Program-made: the position numbers and the translations under genes
Source of the DNA: Sulfurimonas sp.
GTDB lineage: Bacteria > Campylobacterota > Campylobacteria > Campylobacterales > Sulfurimonadaceae
Direction: 5' to 3'
DNA length: 64,000 bases
NCBI RefSeq assembly: GCF_028714975.1
Contig: NZ_JAQTLH010000002.1
Coordinates: 62,001-126,000 of the forward strand
Notes under the pieces: model-generated
Seen by the model: only the letters and a program-made list of their open reading frames with translations
Database searches by the model: none
Told to the model about the DNA's origin: nothing
Part shown: in pieces, positions 17,027 to 25,020 of the stretch
Numbering within the stretch: position 1 is the first letter of the stretch
Layout of the letters: each line of letters opens with the position of its first letter

Positions 17027-18142
17027 GTGATTATTGAGATTGGAAAAAATCATTTGAAAAATGAAATATTGGAATTTTTTGATGCAAATACAAAGCAGAT
17101 AGAAGCACTTGTTTTTACTATAGAGATAAGGGATGCTTATACGCAGGGGCACTCTAAACGAGTGGCTCGGTATGCTGCACATCTTGCAAAATGGATGCAG
17201 ATGGATGAGTATTTTATAAAAGCTATTTATGTGGTTGGAATGCTGCATGACTTGGGTAAGATAGGAATTCCCGATGAAATTTTACTAAAACCGAGTGCAC
17301 TCACTGAGATAGAGTACAATCTTATCAAACTCCACAGTACGCTCTCGGAGAGAATTATCCAAAAACTAGAACTTTTCCCAGAGCTTCTCTTAGCAGTGCG
17401 CCATCACCATGAAAATTTTAACGGAAGCGGGTATCCTGATGGTTTGATAGAAGAAAATATCCCTTTGATGTCAAGGATGATTTGCATAGTGGATGTCTTT
17501 GATGCACTTACTACAAGAAGAGTTTATAGGGATTTGATGTCTATGGAGATGGCTATGGAGGTTATGGAAGAGGAGTTTAAAAAAGGGAAGTTTGACCCTA
17601 AGATTTATGCAATTTTTAAAAAAAACATCTCTAAAGTCGGAGTTTTGGATTTGGGTCATCTTTTGGAGTTTAACTACCCTGAGCTTGAGGAGAGACGCAA
17701 CACTTTTTACTTTAAAAATCCTATTACAAACCTGCTGAACAAAACAGCACTATTGACCTTTTTAAGCAAGGGTGCAAACAAAAATGAGTCTGCATTTTTA
17801 GCAGAGATAAATATTAGCGGTTTTAGTGAATACAACAGAACATACGGACTATGCAGAGGAGATGAGCTGCTTAAAAAAATCGGAAATTTATTGACTAGAA
17901 AATTTGGAAATTCTCAAGAGTTTGAAATGCCGCTAAAGCACAAAATCTATATTTTTCATGGATATGCAGATAAGTTTTATCTTTTAGAATTTGGTTTTAG
18001 AGATGCTTACCTTAAGGCTAGATTGGACAAAGTTATTAAAAAAGCGCAGGAGGAGATAAATACTCCGCTTTACTACAAAGTGTTGCTTCATGGTGAAAAA
18101 ATTCCTAGCAATATCCATAATAAAGTGGGTTATCTCCTATGA
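17027..18142 (+). CDS. HD-GYP phosphodiesterase with degenerate C-terminal GGDEF-like domain
   Basis: The 371-residue soluble protein has an HD-GYP domain: H42 in GHSKRVARYA, H74/D75 in MLHDLGKIGIPDE, HHHEN (126-130) and GSGYPDG (133-139). Such enzymes hydrolyse c-di-GMP. The C-terminal part (about 230-360) resembles GGDEF (NPITNLLNKTALL, then NISGFSEYNRTYGLCRGDELLKKI) but lacks the GGDEF signature. It starts with GTG and heads a four-gene operon, its end overlapping the next gene by ATGA. No membrane segment is visible. Confidence 0.88.
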   Translation: MIIEIGKNHLKNEILEFFDANTKQIEALVFTIEIRDAYTQGHSKRVARYAAHLAKWMQMDEYFIKAIYVVGMLHDLGKIGIPDEILLKPSALTEIEYNLIKLHSTLSERIIQKLELFPELLLAVRHHHENFNGSGYPDGLIEENIPLMSRMICIVDVFDALTTRRVYRDLMSMEMAMEVMEEEFKKGKFDPKIYAIFKKNISKVGVLDLGHLLEFNYPELEERRNTFYFKNPITNLLNKTALLTFLSKGANKNESAFLAEINISGFSEYNRTYGLCRGDELLKKIGNLLTRKFGNSQEFEMPLKHKIYIFHGYADKFYLLEFGFRDAYLKARLDKVIKKAQEEINTPLYYKVLLHGEKIPSNIHNKVGYLL

Positions 18143-19113
18143 AACGCATCTTTAACTGTGCCATAACCAATCAAATTGAACTTCTATATGCAAAAACGAG
18201 TTTGAAAAATTTTTTAAAAAGCTACACTACGCCGGATACCCATTTTTTGGAGTTTGCAGTTATGGAGCTTGGTACAAATCTTATCAAGTATGCAAATGGA
18301 GGAGAGTTATGGTTTTTGCTTATTAATGAGAAACTTGCACTCGCTTCCGTTGATTTTGGAGTCGGTGCAGACGACATAGATACGATTGTGCAAAGAGGTT
18401 ACTCTTCATCGGCTCAGGAGTCTTTGGGACTTGGTCTTTTCTCTTTGGTTTCTCATAAATCCTATGTTTTTGAGATAGCATCTTTTTCTAAAAAAAACAG
18501 TACCTCCATGGCGGGAAGCATTTTTGTGTTATATGAAAAACCCCACGATAAGAGCTCTTTTTGTTCTATGAGCCTCCCTCTTTACGATACGAGACACAAT
18601 GGAGATTTTATCGTACAAAAGGGGAAGTATGTTTTTTTCGGAGACATTGCAGGACATGGCAAAAAGGCATTTTTGAGTGCATCTGAGATTATCAAACAGT
18701 TCTTTGAGAGTTCGATTGTCGAGGGTTATATTGACGACTATTTTCAAAAATTGCACTGCTTTATCATTGAAAATTCACTTCGCAGTTTTGTCGGAGCTTT
18801 AGTAGAGTTAAACCAAAACTTCTGGAAGATTTACGGTGTGGGAAATATATCTTTGGTAGTGAAACAAAAAGAGAGTTGTAGACTCAACTCATTTTCACAA
18901 GGGATAGTGGGAGAGACTTTTAACAATGTCTCCTCTTTTGAGTTTTTCAAAGAGGAATGCTCCATGGTTATCCTTATGACGGATGGAATAGATGCAAAAA
19001 AAGCTATAGAGATAGTACAAAAATTCGGCAATCTCTCAAAAGAGTCTTTAGCGATTGCGATAACCCATTTTGCAGGCATGCATGATGATAAAACGGTTGC
19101 TATATTTATTTAA
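18139..19113 (+). CDS. RsbT/RsbW-like HATPase fused to a SpoIIE-type PP2C phosphatase
   Basis: The 324-residue protein joins two partner-switching activities. Residues about 1-130 form a GHKL ATPase (ELGTNLIKYA N-box with E43 and N47, VDFGVG at 71-76, LGLGL at 96-100). Residues about 145-324 form a SpoIIE/RsbU/RsbX-like PP2C domain (FFGDIAGHGKKA with D169, MTDGID near 285-290, HDDKTVAIFI at the end). It could both phosphorylate and dephosphorylate the STAS protein encoded next. It overlaps the HD-GYP gene by four bases and lies 14 bases before the STAS gene. Confidence 0.85.
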   Translation: MKRIFNCAITNQIELLYAKTSLKNFLKSYTTPDTHFLEFAVMELGTNLIKYANGGELWFLLINEKLALASVDFGVGADDIDTIVQRGYSSSAQESLGLGLFSLVSHKSYVFEIASFSKKNSTSMAGSIFVLYEKPHDKSSFCSMSLPLYDTRHNGDFIVQKGKYVFFGDIAGHGKKAFLSASEIIKQFFESSIVEGYIDDYFQKLHCFIIENSLRSFVGALVELNQNFWKIYGVGNISLVVKQKESCRLNSFSQGIVGETFNNVSSFEFFKEECSMVILMTDGIDAKKAIEIVQKFGNLSKESLAIAITHFAGMHDDKTVAIFI

Positions 19114-19127
19114 ACAGGAGAATGAAA

Positions 19128-19940
19128 ATGAATCAAAAAATAAAAGAACAGTTACAAGATCTCATCAAAGTACACTCATCGGAGCTGATTGAAGAGTGGG
19201 TTAAGTTTTTTAGCGAGAGTGAAAAAGAGGTGCAAAGCCGCTACTACGATGACTTTTTAGGTTTTTTTGAGGAGTGTGTAGAAGAAAATTTAGATGTTAA
19301 AAGTGAATCGGCTCAAACAATGTCAATGTTTTTAGGTAAGTTATATGAGATACTCGGTGATGACTACTTTTTTAACTTTCAAGAGTCCGTATATACTTGC
19401 TATATGAAGTTTCCTCTCTTCGCTGTTTTAGATAAAAGAGATGAGTTTCATTATGAGATTGCAAAAATGCTTACGGCATTTTTCGAGTCAATGACTTCAA
19501 AGATGATTATAAAATTGCTGCATAAAAATCAGGAGCTTGTGCGTTCAACTAACTCTGAGCTTGAGGAGAGAGAAGCTCCCATGAGTGAGATATCCGAGGG
19601 TGTTTTAATGGTTACTCTTGTGGGAACGCTTGATTCAAACCGTATCTTAAAGATTATTGATAAGGTTTTAAAAAATTTAGAAAATGTAAATATTACGGAT
19701 GTTATCATTGAGATAAATTCTATCTTTGATATCAACAGCGAAATAGCACAGCAGATTGTCAAGCTAAACAACGCCATCCATTTTATGGGTTCTCGCTCTT
19801 ATATAAGTGGTGTAAATGCAAATATTGCCAAAAATCTCACTCATCTTGGGATTTCTTTGGGTGATGTAAAAACATACAGAACTACAAAGGAGGCTATAAA
19901 GAGCATTCAACTTTCTAAAAGGGTTGAGGCAAATGCTTGA
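19128..19940 (+). CDS. RsbR-like protein with C-terminal STAS domain
   Basis: About 270 residues: an all-helical N-terminal domain like RsbRD_N (IEEWVKFFSESEKEVQSRYYDDF) and a C-terminal STAS domain (about 155-262, MVTLVGTLDSNRILKI, VIIEINSIFDINSEIAQQI). The loop that carries the phosphorylated Thr or Ser in RsbR/RsbS (DITG/DISG) reads EINSI here, leaving a serine. ATG 19128 lies seven bases after AGGAG; ATG 19122 is too close to it. It is the probable substrate of the upstream kinase/phosphatase fusion, and its end overlaps the diguanylate cyclase start. Confidence 0.82.
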   Translation: MNQKIKEQLQDLIKVHSSELIEEWVKFFSESEKEVQSRYYDDFLGFFEECVEENLDVKSESAQTMSMFLGKLYEILGDDYFFNFQESVYTCYMKFPLFAVLDKRDEFHYEIAKMLTAFFESMTSKMIIKLLHKNQELVRSTNSELEEREAPMSEISEGVLMVTLVGTLDSNRILKIIDKVLKNLENVNITDVIIEINSIFDINSEIAQQIVKLNNAIHFMGSRSYISGVNANIAKNLTHLGISLGDVKTYRTTKEAIKSIQLSKRVEANA

Positions 19941-20706
19941 TTTTATAGCTGCAGGAGCGCTCTTTGATGCCTCTACAAAAAAGATATCGGAATCGACGCA
20001 AACTTTTAACTCTCTTTTTACAAAAGAGGTATCTCTAGATGAACTTCTAGCAAATCTTGAGATAGAAGCAACTTCTGATGATCTTCCATATGCGCAGTGG
20101 ATGATGATTGGGGATGAGAACTATTTTTTTACTATAAGATTTTTGCAAAGTACGATAGCCGTGATTTTGTATCGTGATCCGCTTATCGAAGAGCTCTATG
20201 TAACACTGAAAAACGAATCTCTTTATGATTCTTTAACGGAAGGGCTGCATAAAAACCATGGAGAAGCGCGCATTTGTAATGAGTTAAAGCTCTATACAAG
20301 ATACTCCGAAAATGCGTTTTGTGTTTTGATTTACGATATAGATTTTTTTAAAAAAGTAAATGATACTTACGGTCATTTGGCAGGTGATTTTATACTCAAA
20401 GAACTCTCTTTGAGAATTAAAACTATTTTAAGAGATACGGATGTGTTTGTTCGTTTCGGAGGAGAAGAGTTTTTGATACTTCTTCCTATGACAAAGATAG
20501 CAGGTGCTATGGTCATAGCAAAAAGGATTTTGAGTGTTGCTGCATCAGAACCATTTCTTTTTCAAAACTACAAAATAGATGTCACCATAAGCATAGGGAT
20601 AACATCTCCACTTAAAAGCGACACTATAGCAACATTGATAGCAAGAGCAGATCAAGCGCTTTACAAAGCAAAAACAAACGGTCGCAATAGGATTGAGTAT
20701 CTCTAG
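19933..20706 (+). CDS. Diguanylate cyclase (GGEEF, soluble)
   Basis: The 257-residue protein has an unassigned N-terminal region (about 1-95) and a GGDEF domain with IYDIDFFKKVNDTYGH, RxxD inhibitory site (RDTD) and the intact signature FGGEEF (about 175-180), ending ADQALYKAKTNGRNR. It should make c-di-GMP with product inhibition. The usual DxLTGLxNR box is altered to DSLTEGLHKNHGE. ATG 19933 overlaps the STAS gene end by eight bases; TTG 19924 is a weaker alternative. It is the output member of the operon. Confidence 0.88.
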   Translation: MLDFIAAGALFDASTKKISESTQTFNSLFTKEVSLDELLANLEIEATSDDLPYAQWMMIGDENYFFTIRFLQSTIAVILYRDPLIEELYVTLKNESLYDSLTEGLHKNHGEARICNELKLYTRYSENAFCVLIYDIDFFKKVNDTYGHLAGDFILKELSLRIKTILRDTDVFVRFGGEEFLILLPMTKIAGAMVIAKRILSVAASEPFLFQNYKIDVTISIGITSPLKSDTIATLIARADQALYKAKTNGRNRIEYL

Positions 20707-20757: not shown

Positions 20758-23334
20758 ATGTTCCATATTGACTTTAATAGAAAAATCTTTTGGGTTATTG
20801 CTATTCTTGTAGTTTTTTCCAATACTCTTCTTACTTACACAATGTATAAAAAAAATCAAGAAACGATTGAAGTTATGGCATTATCAAAAGCAGATAATCT
20901 TAAAAACTATTTTATTTCCATGAGAAATATATATCATCATCAATTTTTAAATAGCGGTCTAGATTTAAATGATACAACTATCGGATTCTTGCCTGCTCAT
21001 GCTTCTACCCTTATAAGTGACAAGTTTGTTGAACTCTCCCGAGATGGAACAGCAATTAGAAATGTAACAGATAGAGCTAGAAACGAAAAAAACAAAGCAG
21101 ATAAGTTTGAACTTGAAGCGATTGAATATTTTAAAAATAACCCACAAAAAATTATGCTTATGAAAAAAATAGAACAAAACGGAAGAAATTTTTTTAACTT
21201 TACCTCACCGCTCATTATAGAACCTTACTGTATCTTATGCCACGGGAAAAAAGAGGATACTTTGCCATCTATCCAAAAGATGTATGATAATGCTTATGAC
21301 TATAAAGTAGGTGATATCCGCGGTGTTACAAGTGTAAAAATCCCTTCAGAAGAATTAACAAATGAAAGTATGCAAAGTTTTTATAGTATTGCGATTTTTA
21401 GCTGGATTACCACACTTTTTTTGCTAATCATTATCTACTATGCCATCAGAAAGCTTACTATTAAAGATGTTGAGCAGAAGATGCTCCTTCAAAGTGAAGT
21501 AAAGATAAAAACAGCCAATCTTGAAGAACAAAAAAATGAGTTAAAAATTGCCAACACAAAACAGCAATATCTACTCTCATTACTTAGAACTGTTGCCGAT
21601 TGCAATCAGATTCTTATAACTGCAAAAAACATCAACGAACTCATACAAAATACAACCATATCTATGTACTCAAATACTTCATTTGCAAGTATTAAAATCT
21701 CAATTTTTGAAGATGGTAAACAGCGAGTAAAAAGCTCTGTAGGACTTGATGAGGAGATGGAGGTGCTGCCGCTAGAAGAGGATGTTTTTAAAAATAATCA
21801 TAATCTATTTTTAAAAAGTTTTGACGACTCTATGCCGCAAGAGTGTTTGAAAAAAGTAAAAAGACACAACATTACAGAAGTGTATGCTCTTCCGCTTAGA
21901 AAAGAACACTATGCCAAAAAGGCTCTTGGAGCTATGGTAATATATTCTATTAAAGAAAATGGTTTCTCTATGGAAGAGAGAGATATGATAAATGAACTTG
22001 CTGGTGATATTGGTTTTGCAATCAACTCTTTGTATCAAAAAGATGCAATCAATCAGCTCTCCTATTATGATCAACTGACAAACCTTCCAAATCAAAATCT
22101 TTTTGAGCAGCATTTAAATCAAGCCTTTTTAAAAAGTAGTGCAAGTTTAAAATATGGTGCCGTTTTATTGTTGGATTTTGATGATTTTAAAAATGTAAAT
22201 GATCTTATGGGCAAAGATATAGGTGATGAAGTTTTAAAAGAGATGGCAAACAGGCTTGTATCTAAAATAGATAAGACATCTATGATCTCAAGATTTGGAG
22301 GAGATAGATTTTTAATTTTAGTTGAAGATCTCTCAAGCGAGGAAAAAGAGTCTGCAATTATCTTAAAGCATATTGCACAAAAAATAGTAGCACTGGCAAA
22401 AGAGCCTTTTATCTTAGATAGCAAAACTTTTCATCTAACATGTAGCATAGGAATCGCTCTCTTTTTTGATCATAAAACTTCATTAAAGACAATTTTAAAT
22501 CAAGTAGAACATGCTATGAGAGTTGCAAAAGAGAGTGGAAAAAATCTTATAAAATTCTATGATCAAGCACTTCAGGATATGACAAATTCAAGGTCTTTGA
22601 TGTTACAGAATCTTAAAGAGGCGGTTTTAGAACATCAATTTGTTCTTTACTATCAAAAACAAGTTGATAGCAATGCAAATGTTATAGGTGTTGAAGCGCT
22701 TATAAGATGGCAACACCCTAACTTAGGATTTGTATCTCCAAGTGAGTTTATCCCTGTTGCAGAAGAGAATGATATTATAAAAGAGATTGGTGCTTATGTG
22801 CTAAATGAAGCTACAAATCTCATCGTAAAGTGGGCTAATGATGAGGTTAAAAAAGAGTGGAAAATCTCGGTAAATATCAGTCCAAAGCAGTTTAGAGATG
22901 AAAACTTTGTGGACAATATTAAAAATTTAATAATCTCAAAAAATATAGATTCAAAGAAGCTAAGAGTTGAGCTAACTGAGAGTGTTGCGATAGATAATCA
23001 AGAGAGTGTCATGCAAAAAATTAATGAATTAAATCGATTTGGTATTTCTATCTCGATTGATGATTTTGGAACTGGATATTCAAGTTTAAGATACCTTAAG
23101 CATCTGCATATTGATGAACTCAAAATAGATCAATCATTTGTCTTGGGATTAGGTAAGAACTCTTCAGACAAAACCATCATAAAAACTATTCTTACAATGG
23201 GAGAAGAGTTTGGTTTTGAGGTTATTGCAGAGGGCGTTGAGACAAAAGAGCAGTTTGAGGAGCTTAAAAATCTTGGGTGTAACTATTTTCAAGGATATCT
23301 GTTTGCTAAGCCTTGTCCCGAAAATGAGCTGTAA
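20758..23334 (+). CDS. Haem-c-binding sensor with GAF-like, GGDEF and EAL domains
   Basis: The 858-residue protein has membrane helices near 10-28 and 211-228. They enclose a DUF3365-like periplasmic domain with a CILCH motif (C158-H162), a c-type haem attachment site. A coiled coil and a GAF-like region (about 275-420) follow, then GGDEF (DQLTNLPNQN; signature degenerate, GGDRF) and EAL (VEALIRWQ, NISPKQF, ELTESVAI, DDFGTGYSSL, AEGVET) with its catalytic residues kept. It is probably a redox- or gas-responsive c-di-GMP phosphodiesterase. AAAGGAG upstream lies within a small hairpin (AAAGG/CCTTT), twelve bases from the ATG. Confidence 0.88.
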   Translation: MFHIDFNRKIFWVIAILVVFSNTLLTYTMYKKNQETIEVMALSKADNLKNYFISMRNIYHHQFLNSGLDLNDTTIGFLPAHASTLISDKFVELSRDGTAIRNVTDRARNEKNKADKFELEAIEYFKNNPQKIMLMKKIEQNGRNFFNFTSPLIIEPYCILCHGKKEDTLPSIQKMYDNAYDYKVGDIRGVTSVKIPSEELTNESMQSFYSIAIFSWITTLFLLIIIYYAIRKLTIKDVEQKMLLQSEVKIKTANLEEQKNELKIANTKQQYLLSLLRTVADCNQILITAKNINELIQNTTISMYSNTSFASIKISIFEDGKQRVKSSVGLDEEMEVLPLEEDVFKNNHNLFLKSFDDSMPQECLKKVKRHNITEVYALPLRKEHYAKKALGAMVIYSIKENGFSMEERDMINELAGDIGFAINSLYQKDAINQLSYYDQLTNLPNQNLFEQHLNQAFLKSSASLKYGAVLLLDFDDFKNVNDLMGKDIGDEVLKEMANRLVSKIDKTSMISRFGGDRFLILVEDLSSEEKESAIILKHIAQKIVALAKEPFILDSKTFHLTCSIGIALFFDHKTSLKTILNQVEHAMRVAKESGKNLIKFYDQALQDMTNSRSLMLQNLKEAVLEHQFVLYYQKQVDSNANVIGVEALIRWQHPNLGFVSPSEFIPVAEENDIIKEIGAYVLNEATNLIVKWANDEVKKEWKISVNISPKQFRDENFVDNIKNLIISKNIDSKKLRVELTESVAIDNQESVMQKINELNRFGISISIDDFGTGYSSLRYLKHLHIDELKIDQSFVLGLGKNSSDKTIIKTILTMGEEFGFEVIAEGVETKEQFEELKNLGCNYFQGYLFAKPCPENEL

Positions 23335-23548: not shown

Positions 23549-24352
23549 TTGGATTATTTAATACTTATCCTGCCTCTCTCTTTGTTGCCGGTTTTTTATT
23601 ATAGAGATCTTTATAAAAAAGAGAAAAATCAGAGGCTAAATATTGCAAAAGATCTCGATATCTTAAGTAAACAACAAATCTTTTTTATAAAAAAAATGAT
23701 TCATGAGATGAAAACGCCCCTAAGTGCCATAGAGTTACATCTTTCTATAATGGCAAAAGAGCATTGCTGTACAAAAAGTGTTGCCATGATAAAAAGTTCT
23801 ACGCGTACGCTAGCAACGATTTATGATGATATTGCCTTTCATGCTGGAAAAGAGAAGATTTGTTATCCGGCGGAGTGGATAGAGCTGGAGGAGTTTGTTG
23901 CCGATAGAGTGCTTTACTTTGATGCGATGGCAACTATTAAAAATATTTTTTTAGATTTTCATGTGGAGAGTGATTTTTATATCTGCATGAGCAGAGTAGA
24001 GCTTCAAAGACTCATCGACAATACGCTCTCAAATGCCATAAAATACTCAAAAAAATCATCTGAAATAGTAGAAATTATCATCACAAATGATAATGAAGAG
24101 TTAAATCTTATCTTTAGAGATAAGGGTATCGGGATGAGTGAGGCAGAGGTTCAAAACCTTTTTAAAGAGTACTATAGAGTGAGCAACAATATTCAAGGAC
24201 TCGGTCTTGGAATGAGCATCATCAAAGAGATTTGTGACGACTATGGTATTTCTATAAAGATTCAAAGTATTAAAAAAGAGGGAACTACTTTTATCTATAA
24301 GATTCCAAAAGAGATTGTTAAAAGAGAAGTGAAAAACAGAGGTGTAGTATGA
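23549..24352 (+). CDS. Sensor histidine kinase
   Basis: The 267-residue protein has one short N-terminal membrane segment (about 2-17), a DHp box FIKKMIHEMKTPLSAIELH with H52, an N-box LIDNTLSNAIKYSKK, a G1 box RDKGIGM and a G2 box QGLGLGMSI. It lacks a periplasmic sensor domain, so it probably senses the membrane or works with another protein. The start is TTG, preceded by AGAAGGA. Its stop overlaps the response regulator start by ATGA, making a two-component pair. Confidence 0.9.
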   Translation: MDYLILILPLSLLPVFYYRDLYKKEKNQRLNIAKDLDILSKQQIFFIKKMIHEMKTPLSAIELHLSIMAKEHCCTKSVAMIKSSTRTLATIYDDIAFHAGKEKICYPAEWIELEEFVADRVLYFDAMATIKNIFLDFHVESDFYICMSRVELQRLIDNTLSNAIKYSKKSSEIVEIIITNDNEELNLIFRDKGIGMSEAEVQNLFKEYYRVSNNIQGLGLGMSIIKEICDDYGISIKIQSIKKEGTTFIYKIPKEIVKREVKNRGVV

Positions 24353-25020
24353 AAGTTCTTCTTTTAGAAGATGATTTTAGCACCAACGCTGCCATAGTGC
24401 ATGAGCTTGAAGCATTCGGGTTTATAGTTGATTCATGTTTGGATGGGGAGTGTGCTATGGATATGGTTCACCAAAAGCAGCACGATCTCTATGTGCTTGA
24501 TATCAATGTTCCTAATTTTGACGGTTATGAAGTTTTAGAGTTTATTATAGAGAGATATCCAAATGCTCTGACTATTATGATCTCAACTCATATAGAGATT
24601 GAATATCTTAAAAAGGCTTTCATACTTGGAAGTAACGATTTTTTAAAAAAACCCTTTGAGATAGAGGAGCTTCTGCTTCGCATAAGAAATATCATGCGGC
24701 TGGCAAATCCTCAAGGAAATAAAGAAGTGATTGATTTGTCGCAAGGGTATACCTACTCGCTTCTTACCGGTGAGCTTCTTTATTATGATTTGTGCGTTAA
24801 ACTGACAAAAAAAGAGTCTCTTTTGCTGCGTCTTTTGGTTCAAAATTTGGGTAATATCGTAAGTTTTGAGAATATAAAAAATTATGTTTGGGATAACGAG
24901 GAGGAGGTCTCTTTGATTACAGTTCGTTACTGGATTTGTGCGCTTATAAAAAAGTTAAAGAACGGGATGATTGTTAATGTGAGAGGCGATGGATACCGTT
25001 TAAGAAAATTATCACACTAA
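24349..25020 (+). CDS. OmpR-family response regulator
   Basis: The 223-residue protein has a receiver domain (LLLEDD at 4-9, phosphoacceptor D51 in VLDINVP, STH near 82, K about 101 in LKKPFE) and a C-terminal winged-helix domain (KLTKKESLLLRLLVQN...ITVRYWICALIKKLK). It should bind direct repeats as a dimer when phosphorylated by the kinase encoded just upstream. It is a good candidate for the factor recognising the 11-bp repeats in this region. Its last nine bases overlap the opposite-strand diguanylate cyclase gene. Confidence 0.9.
   Translation: MKVLLLEDDFSTNAAIVHELEAFGFIVDSCLDGECAMDMVHQKQHDLYVLDINVPNFDGYEVLEFIIERYPNALTIMISTHIEIEYLKKAFILGSNDFLKKPFEIEELLLRIRNIMRLANPQGNKEVIDLSQGYTYSLLTGELLYYDLCVKLTKKESLLLRLLVQNLGNIVSFENIKNYVWDNEEEVSLITVRYWICALIKKLKNGMIVNVRGDGYRLRKLSH

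Follow-up and report, generated by a model that had tools for sequence, protein, structure and literature searches.

A four-gene operon of Sulfurimonas sp. that probably joins a stressosome-derived switch without RsbS to c-di-GMP synthesis and breakdown

Introduction

Can a switch of the stressosome type work without RsbS and act on c-di-GMP through enzymes encoded beside it? The stressosomes that have been described have a core made of RsbS together with RsbR, and their messenger is RsbT in its free form. The question is raised by a locus in a sulfur-cycle Campylobacterota bacterium, Sulfurimonas sp., where a kinase-phosphatase protein and an RsbR-type protein are encoded between genes for c-di-GMP enzymes. 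A naturally occurring switch in which RsbS is missing and RsbT is joined to its phosphatase would reveal which parts of the stressosome are dispensable, and its four proteins would make a small route, suited to reconstitution, that leads in Campylobacterota from stress-type sensing to c-di-GMP. Positions refer to the window, i.e., the whole stretch of 64,000 nucleotides that was analysed.

Organization of the operon

Window positions 17027-20706 were found to contain four tightly packed genes on the + strand, with neighbours that overlap or nearly touch each other:

17027..18142, + strand: HD-GYP phosphodiesterase whose C-terminal GGDEF domain is degenerate (Pfam HD_5, E 2.1e-35; GGDEF, 2.6e-6)
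18139..19113, + strand: fusion of an RsbT-like serine/threonine kinase with an RsbX-like PP2C phosphatase, 324 aa (family profile, residues)
19128..19940, + strand: RsbR-type protein with a STAS domain behind a helical, sensor-like N-terminal domain (profile, fold match)
19936..20706, + strand: diguanylate cyclase whose GGEEF domain, with an RxxD inhibitory site, follows a small N-terminal domain of mixed alpha/beta type (Pfam GGDEF, 1.3e-36)

The c-di-GMP genes thus flank the switch on each side. A preliminary description of this DNA had placed four ORFs here and called them an overlapping operon, which the ORF coordinates confirmed. The HD-GYP and fusion genes overlap by 4 nt (18139-18142). 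For RsbR, the start at 19128 was preferred over 19122 because of a ribosome-binding site and agreement with homologues, and given this start the gap between the fusion and RsbR genes is 14 nt. The best start for the cyclase is the ATG at 19936, so that the first 5 nt of its gene coincide with the end of the RsbR gene (19936-19940). Promoter and terminator scans gave nothing above chance.

More c-di-GMP genes are present in the same region, with a GGDEF-EAL gene at 20758 and a GGDEF gene at 25012. Besides, positions 23549-25020 encode a histidine kinase-response regulator pair, homologues of which are also found near the operon in three other loci (L011, L018, and L019).

The c-di-GMP enzymes

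The H/HD/H/HH/D positions of the HD-GYP domain were kept in the window protein; of the 12 readable members, just L032 departs, having lost two metal ligands. The window protein therefore carries the metal ligands of an active phosphodiesterase and is predicted to be one. Its degenerate C-terminal GGDEF domain, with GYADKF replacing GGDEF, was absent from the preliminary description.

For the cyclase, Pfam found GGDEF-type domains only. The GGEEF motif and the RxxD I-site were kept in all 18 of 18 members, and this signature predicts an active diguanylate cyclase. In the structural model (pLDDT 91 overall) the N-terminal domain is mixed alpha/beta and not a four-helix bundle, and it is PAS-like solely by the order of its elements. 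Within the whole system conservation is lowest in this domain, with a mean identity of 18% compared to 55% for the GGDEF domain of the same protein.

The RsbT-RsbX fusion

The HATPase/PP2C protein was weak in Pfam (SpoIIE, 0.0012, under the cut-off). A family profile built from 16 members had its best matches with RsbX (3w40, 8.6e-10) and a SpoIIE-type phosphatase (3zt9, 3.3e-9), and its HATPase half reached BceS and, weakly, the anti-sigma F factor. Compared to proteins of related loci, the profile matched RsbX and RsbT of Vibrio (2.2e-18 and 3.6e-17), both RsbX and RsbT of another Campylobacterota genome (G195) and, over most of its length, a T-X fusion of Deinococcus (1.2e-27). Invariant in 17 fusion members were the HATPase residues E43, N47, D72/G74/G76 (DxGxG), and G97/G99 (GxG) and the PP2C residues D156, D169, D282, D316, and D317. 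From the profile matches and the invariant catalytic residues, the product is identified as an RsbT-RsbX fusion, so that the RsbT kinase and the RsbX phosphatase of a stressosome pathway are both found, as two halves of one protein. The HATPase/PP2C fusion of the preliminary description is hereby borne out.

An HsbR-type origin of the fusion was ruled out, as the profile did not match the receiver-PP2C-HATPase protein of the same genome. This HsbR-like protein (L049:3840-5534, on G000:C4) adjoins a chemoreceptor, and no STAS gene was seen beside it in the stretch read. In a plasmid collection just distant relatives of the fusion were found (21-28% identity).

The RsbR-type protein

Pfam recognised the STAS domain, and the RsbR profile matched stressosome RsbR proteins (7o0i, 4.8e-25; 7b0u, 8.9e-22), with SpoIIAA far behind (0.006). 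The structural model had a mean pLDDT of 83 and a pTM of 0.51, which makes the relative placement of its domains uncertain, and it could be superposed along its full length on Listeria RsbR (261 residues, Z 16.7, rmsd 5.7). An N-terminal sensor domain followed by an RsbR-type STAS domain, as expected of a stressosome RsbR, is supported by these full-length profile and fold matches, and the RsbR-like STAS protein proposed earlier was recovered by both. S172 and S206 (numbered from 19122) align with the phosphosites T175/T209 of Listeria (PMC6614362). S172 is invariant (19/19) and the S206 position is Ser or Thr in 19/19 members, so that by residue type both stressosome sites are predicted to be phosphorylatable.

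A Vibrio-like heme-binding RsbR was ruled out, since the N-terminal domain has no conserved His. Cys52 of this domain is conserved in all readable members and Cys93 in 18/19; together with the lack of a conserved His, this might point to sensing of redox state or metals and not to heme.

RsbS and sigma factors

Searches with STAS and RsbS profiles did not find RsbS in the window genome (G000) or in three further carriers of the operon genes (G353, G073, and G326). The search recovered the canonical RsbS of G195, though the G195 sequence was part of the profile. In the fifth carrier (G386) a further STAS reading frame of 93 aa is present. By these searches, RsbS is absent from at least four of the five carrier genomes, which the preliminary description had not noted. 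An RsbS encoded elsewhere in the window genome was also rejected, as only the operon RsbR and two other matches were returned, a 551-aa frame that is SulP transporter-like by length and an ABC-transporter permease that carries a fused STAS domain.

In the window genome just two sigma-70-type factors were found, RpoD-like and FliA-like by length, and none is a dedicated stress sigma factor of the SigB type. The earlier remark that no sigma factor gene lies nearby therefore extends to the whole genome, apart from these two.

Distribution and co-inheritance

The fusion was strongly present in 5/397 genomes of the phylum; five more matches near 1e-4 were ordinary histidine kinases. The RsbR profile detected the same five of the 397 genomes plus a STAS-only match in G195, which belongs to a canonical RsbR-RsbS-RsbT-RsbX set. 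The fusion was not found in any of 40 other genomes taken as a first sample of relatives. A contig scan of GTDB r220, which might miss distant relatives because it was based on two peptide patterns, turned up 17 loci; their sources were Sulfurimonas, Nitratiruptor, Nautiliaceae, and other Campylobacterota, apart from one contig labelled Crocinitomicaceae. The last one (L020) is likely a mis-binned contig, since its downstream genes resemble those of the Nautiliaceae locus L013 in size and strand. After duplicates were merged, 19 distinct loci were obtained, nearly all from Campylobacterota.

The fusion gene adjoined the RsbR gene in all 17 loci with a readable upstream side, and the RsbR gene adjoined the cyclase gene in 18/19 loci. 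The exception, L019, has kept the HD-GYP, fusion, and RsbR genes and has no cyclase gene after RsbR. Adjacency of HD-GYP and fusion genes was seen in 13 of the 17 readable loci (exceptions: L012, L013, L023, and L033), the HD-GYP gene being missing in some Nautiliaceae-type loci, and the full four-gene order was found in 12/17. The conserved gene order expected from the preliminary description thus stood for the fusion, RsbR, and cyclase genes, with no free separation, and was looser for the HD-GYP gene. Genes flanking the operon vary between loci. The gene trees had 6-8 of 9-14 splits in common, compared to about 0.2 for shuffled tips; most splits agree and some conflicts are well supported, so the gene set is mostly, not strictly, co-inherited. 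The four-gene unit is rare but coherent.

Several loci have another GGDEF gene upstream. Two extra GGDEF-family genes, each directly upstream of the HD-GYP gene, are orthologous (L011:10306-11073 and L019:5103-5909; 57%), and a pattern search found the GGDEF motif in L011 and not in L019.

Possible modes of action

Judged from sequences and models, the operon probably encodes a stressosome-derived switch that operates without RsbS and controls c-di-GMP. The profile, fold, and residue evidence agrees with the stressosome-like switch proposed in the preliminary description; that this switch sets the c-di-GMP level directly, as was also proposed, is what we infer. To the reading of the operon as a reduced, stressosome-derived partner switch governing the local pair of c-di-GMP enzymes we assign a probability of about 0.55. 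The N-terminal domain of RsbR, the evident partner of the fusion, would receive the signal, and the kinase half of the fusion would phosphorylate S172/S206, which the phosphatase half would reverse. The phosphorylation state of RsbR would decide on binding of the cyclase, on or off, by RsbR or by the released kinase arm, and the HD-GYP protein, via its degenerate GGDEF domain, would counteract the cyclase from within that complex. Because there is no RsbS, RsbR itself would have to be the scaffold that binds the kinase.

This reading is favoured by the occurrence of fusion and RsbR in the same five genomes, near-constant adjacency, largely congruent trees, and kept catalytic residues and phosphosites, and further by the lack of RsbS in four carriers and of sigma-70 factors other than the RpoD-like and FliA-like ones in the window genome. 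Points against it are that the N-terminal domain of the cyclase, where docking is expected, shows low conservation and that no RsbU_N docking domain was found there, together with the locus without a cyclase (L019), the four of 17 readable loci that miss the HD-GYP gene, and the ligand loss in L032. A fully self-contained version, in which RsbR alone is the scaffold, RsbT and RsbX are tethered, and an RsbR-centred complex reciprocally controls cyclase and HD-GYP protein, is put forward tentatively and, taken as a whole, is rather unlikely.

The effector may also be the kinase arm and not RsbR: RsbR would sequester the RsbT half and, on its own phosphorylation, release it for binding or phosphorylation of the cyclase. 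In Moorella the cyclase MtG, whose docking domain is RsbU_N, is acted on by RsbT (PMC4976288 and PMC12143880, both citing Quin et al. 2012), and all ATPase motifs are kept in the RsbT-like half of the fusion. The cyclase of the operon, however, gave no Pfam match to RsbU_N, its N-terminal domain being modelled as mixed alpha/beta, and the kinase is tethered to a phosphatase and diverges faster than RsbR. We regard this route as doubtful.

It is improbable that the c-di-GMP pair and the RsbR switch are merely co-transcribed for use under shared conditions, without physical regulation. The wealth of c-di-GMP genes in the region (20758 and 25012) and the additional upstream GGDEF genes in other loci would fit such an arrangement, but adjacency is near-constant over divergent loci while the flanks change, and the gene trees are largely congruent. 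Least probable of all is an output on motility, with RsbR binding FlgM and altering FliA activity while the c-di-GMP enzymes act in parallel. It would be modelled on Pseudomonas HsbA, which binds FlgM when unphosphorylated (PMC6482189), and a sigma-70 factor of FliA length is present in the genome. However, the STAS protein is a two-domain RsbR type, the HsbR-like protein of the genome gave no match with the profile of the fusion, and the constant neighbour is the cyclase.

Comparison with known systems

The reduced partner switch favoured here resembles the Bacillus/Listeria stressosome-SigB pathway in the domain plan and phosphosite positions of RsbR and, by homology, in the RsbT and RsbX activities; in contrast to that pathway, genes for RsbS, RsbU, RsbV, RsbW, and SigB are not part of the operon. 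Clusters of rsbRSTX with c-di-GMP outputs are known from Vibrio, Chromobacterium, and Herbaspirillum (PMC9237108). Like the operon, these modules and the one of Moorella contain an RsbR with sensor and STAS domains, RsbT, and RsbX (PMC9237108, PMC12143880), and have an adjoining gene for a c-di-GMP enzyme and no sigma factor within the module (e.g., Vibrio locus L015). The operon differs from them in that it is without RsbS, has RsbT and RsbX in one protein, places cyclase and HD-GYP genes around the switch, and encodes a cyclase for which neither Pfam nor the N-terminal model indicates the RsbU_N domain of the Moorella type. In another Campylobacterota genus (L052:3928-6999, G195), an RsbR-RsbS-RsbT set of the canonical kind was seen next to a GGDEF-EAL gene; behind the set comes an RsbX that is joined to a histidine kinase.

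In HsbRAD of Pseudomonas aeruginosa, kinase and phosphatase are likewise in one protein, and phosphorylation of the antagonist HsbA is linked to the diguanylate cyclase HsbD (PMC6482189). HsbR is a receiver-PP2C-HATPase protein, whereas the fusion is HATPase-PP2C without a receiver, and HsbA is classed as an anti-sigma factor antagonist, whereas the STAS protein of the operon is of the RsbR type; the combination of regulator and antagonist typical of HsbRAD was thus not found in the operon. In SiaABCD, also from P. aeruginosa, a kinase-phosphatase pair governs a phosphoprotein, SiaC, that activates the cyclase SiaD (PMC8457831, PMC7647112). By Pfam, neither SiaC nor the DUF6272/SiaB family is represented in the operon, and SiaC was not found in the window genome, which sets the operon apart from SiaABCD. 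At one locus (L029:2529-5838) the four genes are directly preceded by a Sia-type switch (CHASE8-PP2C, HD-GYP, DUF6272/SiaB, and SiaC), so that two distinct partner switches adjoin c-di-GMP enzymes at a single locus.

No literature report joining stressosome and Sulfurimonas was found in the library that was searched. The idea of a stressosome acting on c-di-GMP is not new, being preceded by Moorella, the proteobacterial rsbRSTX modules, HsbRAD, and SiaABCD. Nor is the fusion new on its own, since T-X fusions elsewhere adjoin complete RsbR-RsbS-RsbT sets, e.g., in Deinococcus. What appears to be a new variant is the form without RsbS that has a fused kinase-phosphatase, no recognised RsbU_N, and both c-di-GMP enzymes in the operon.
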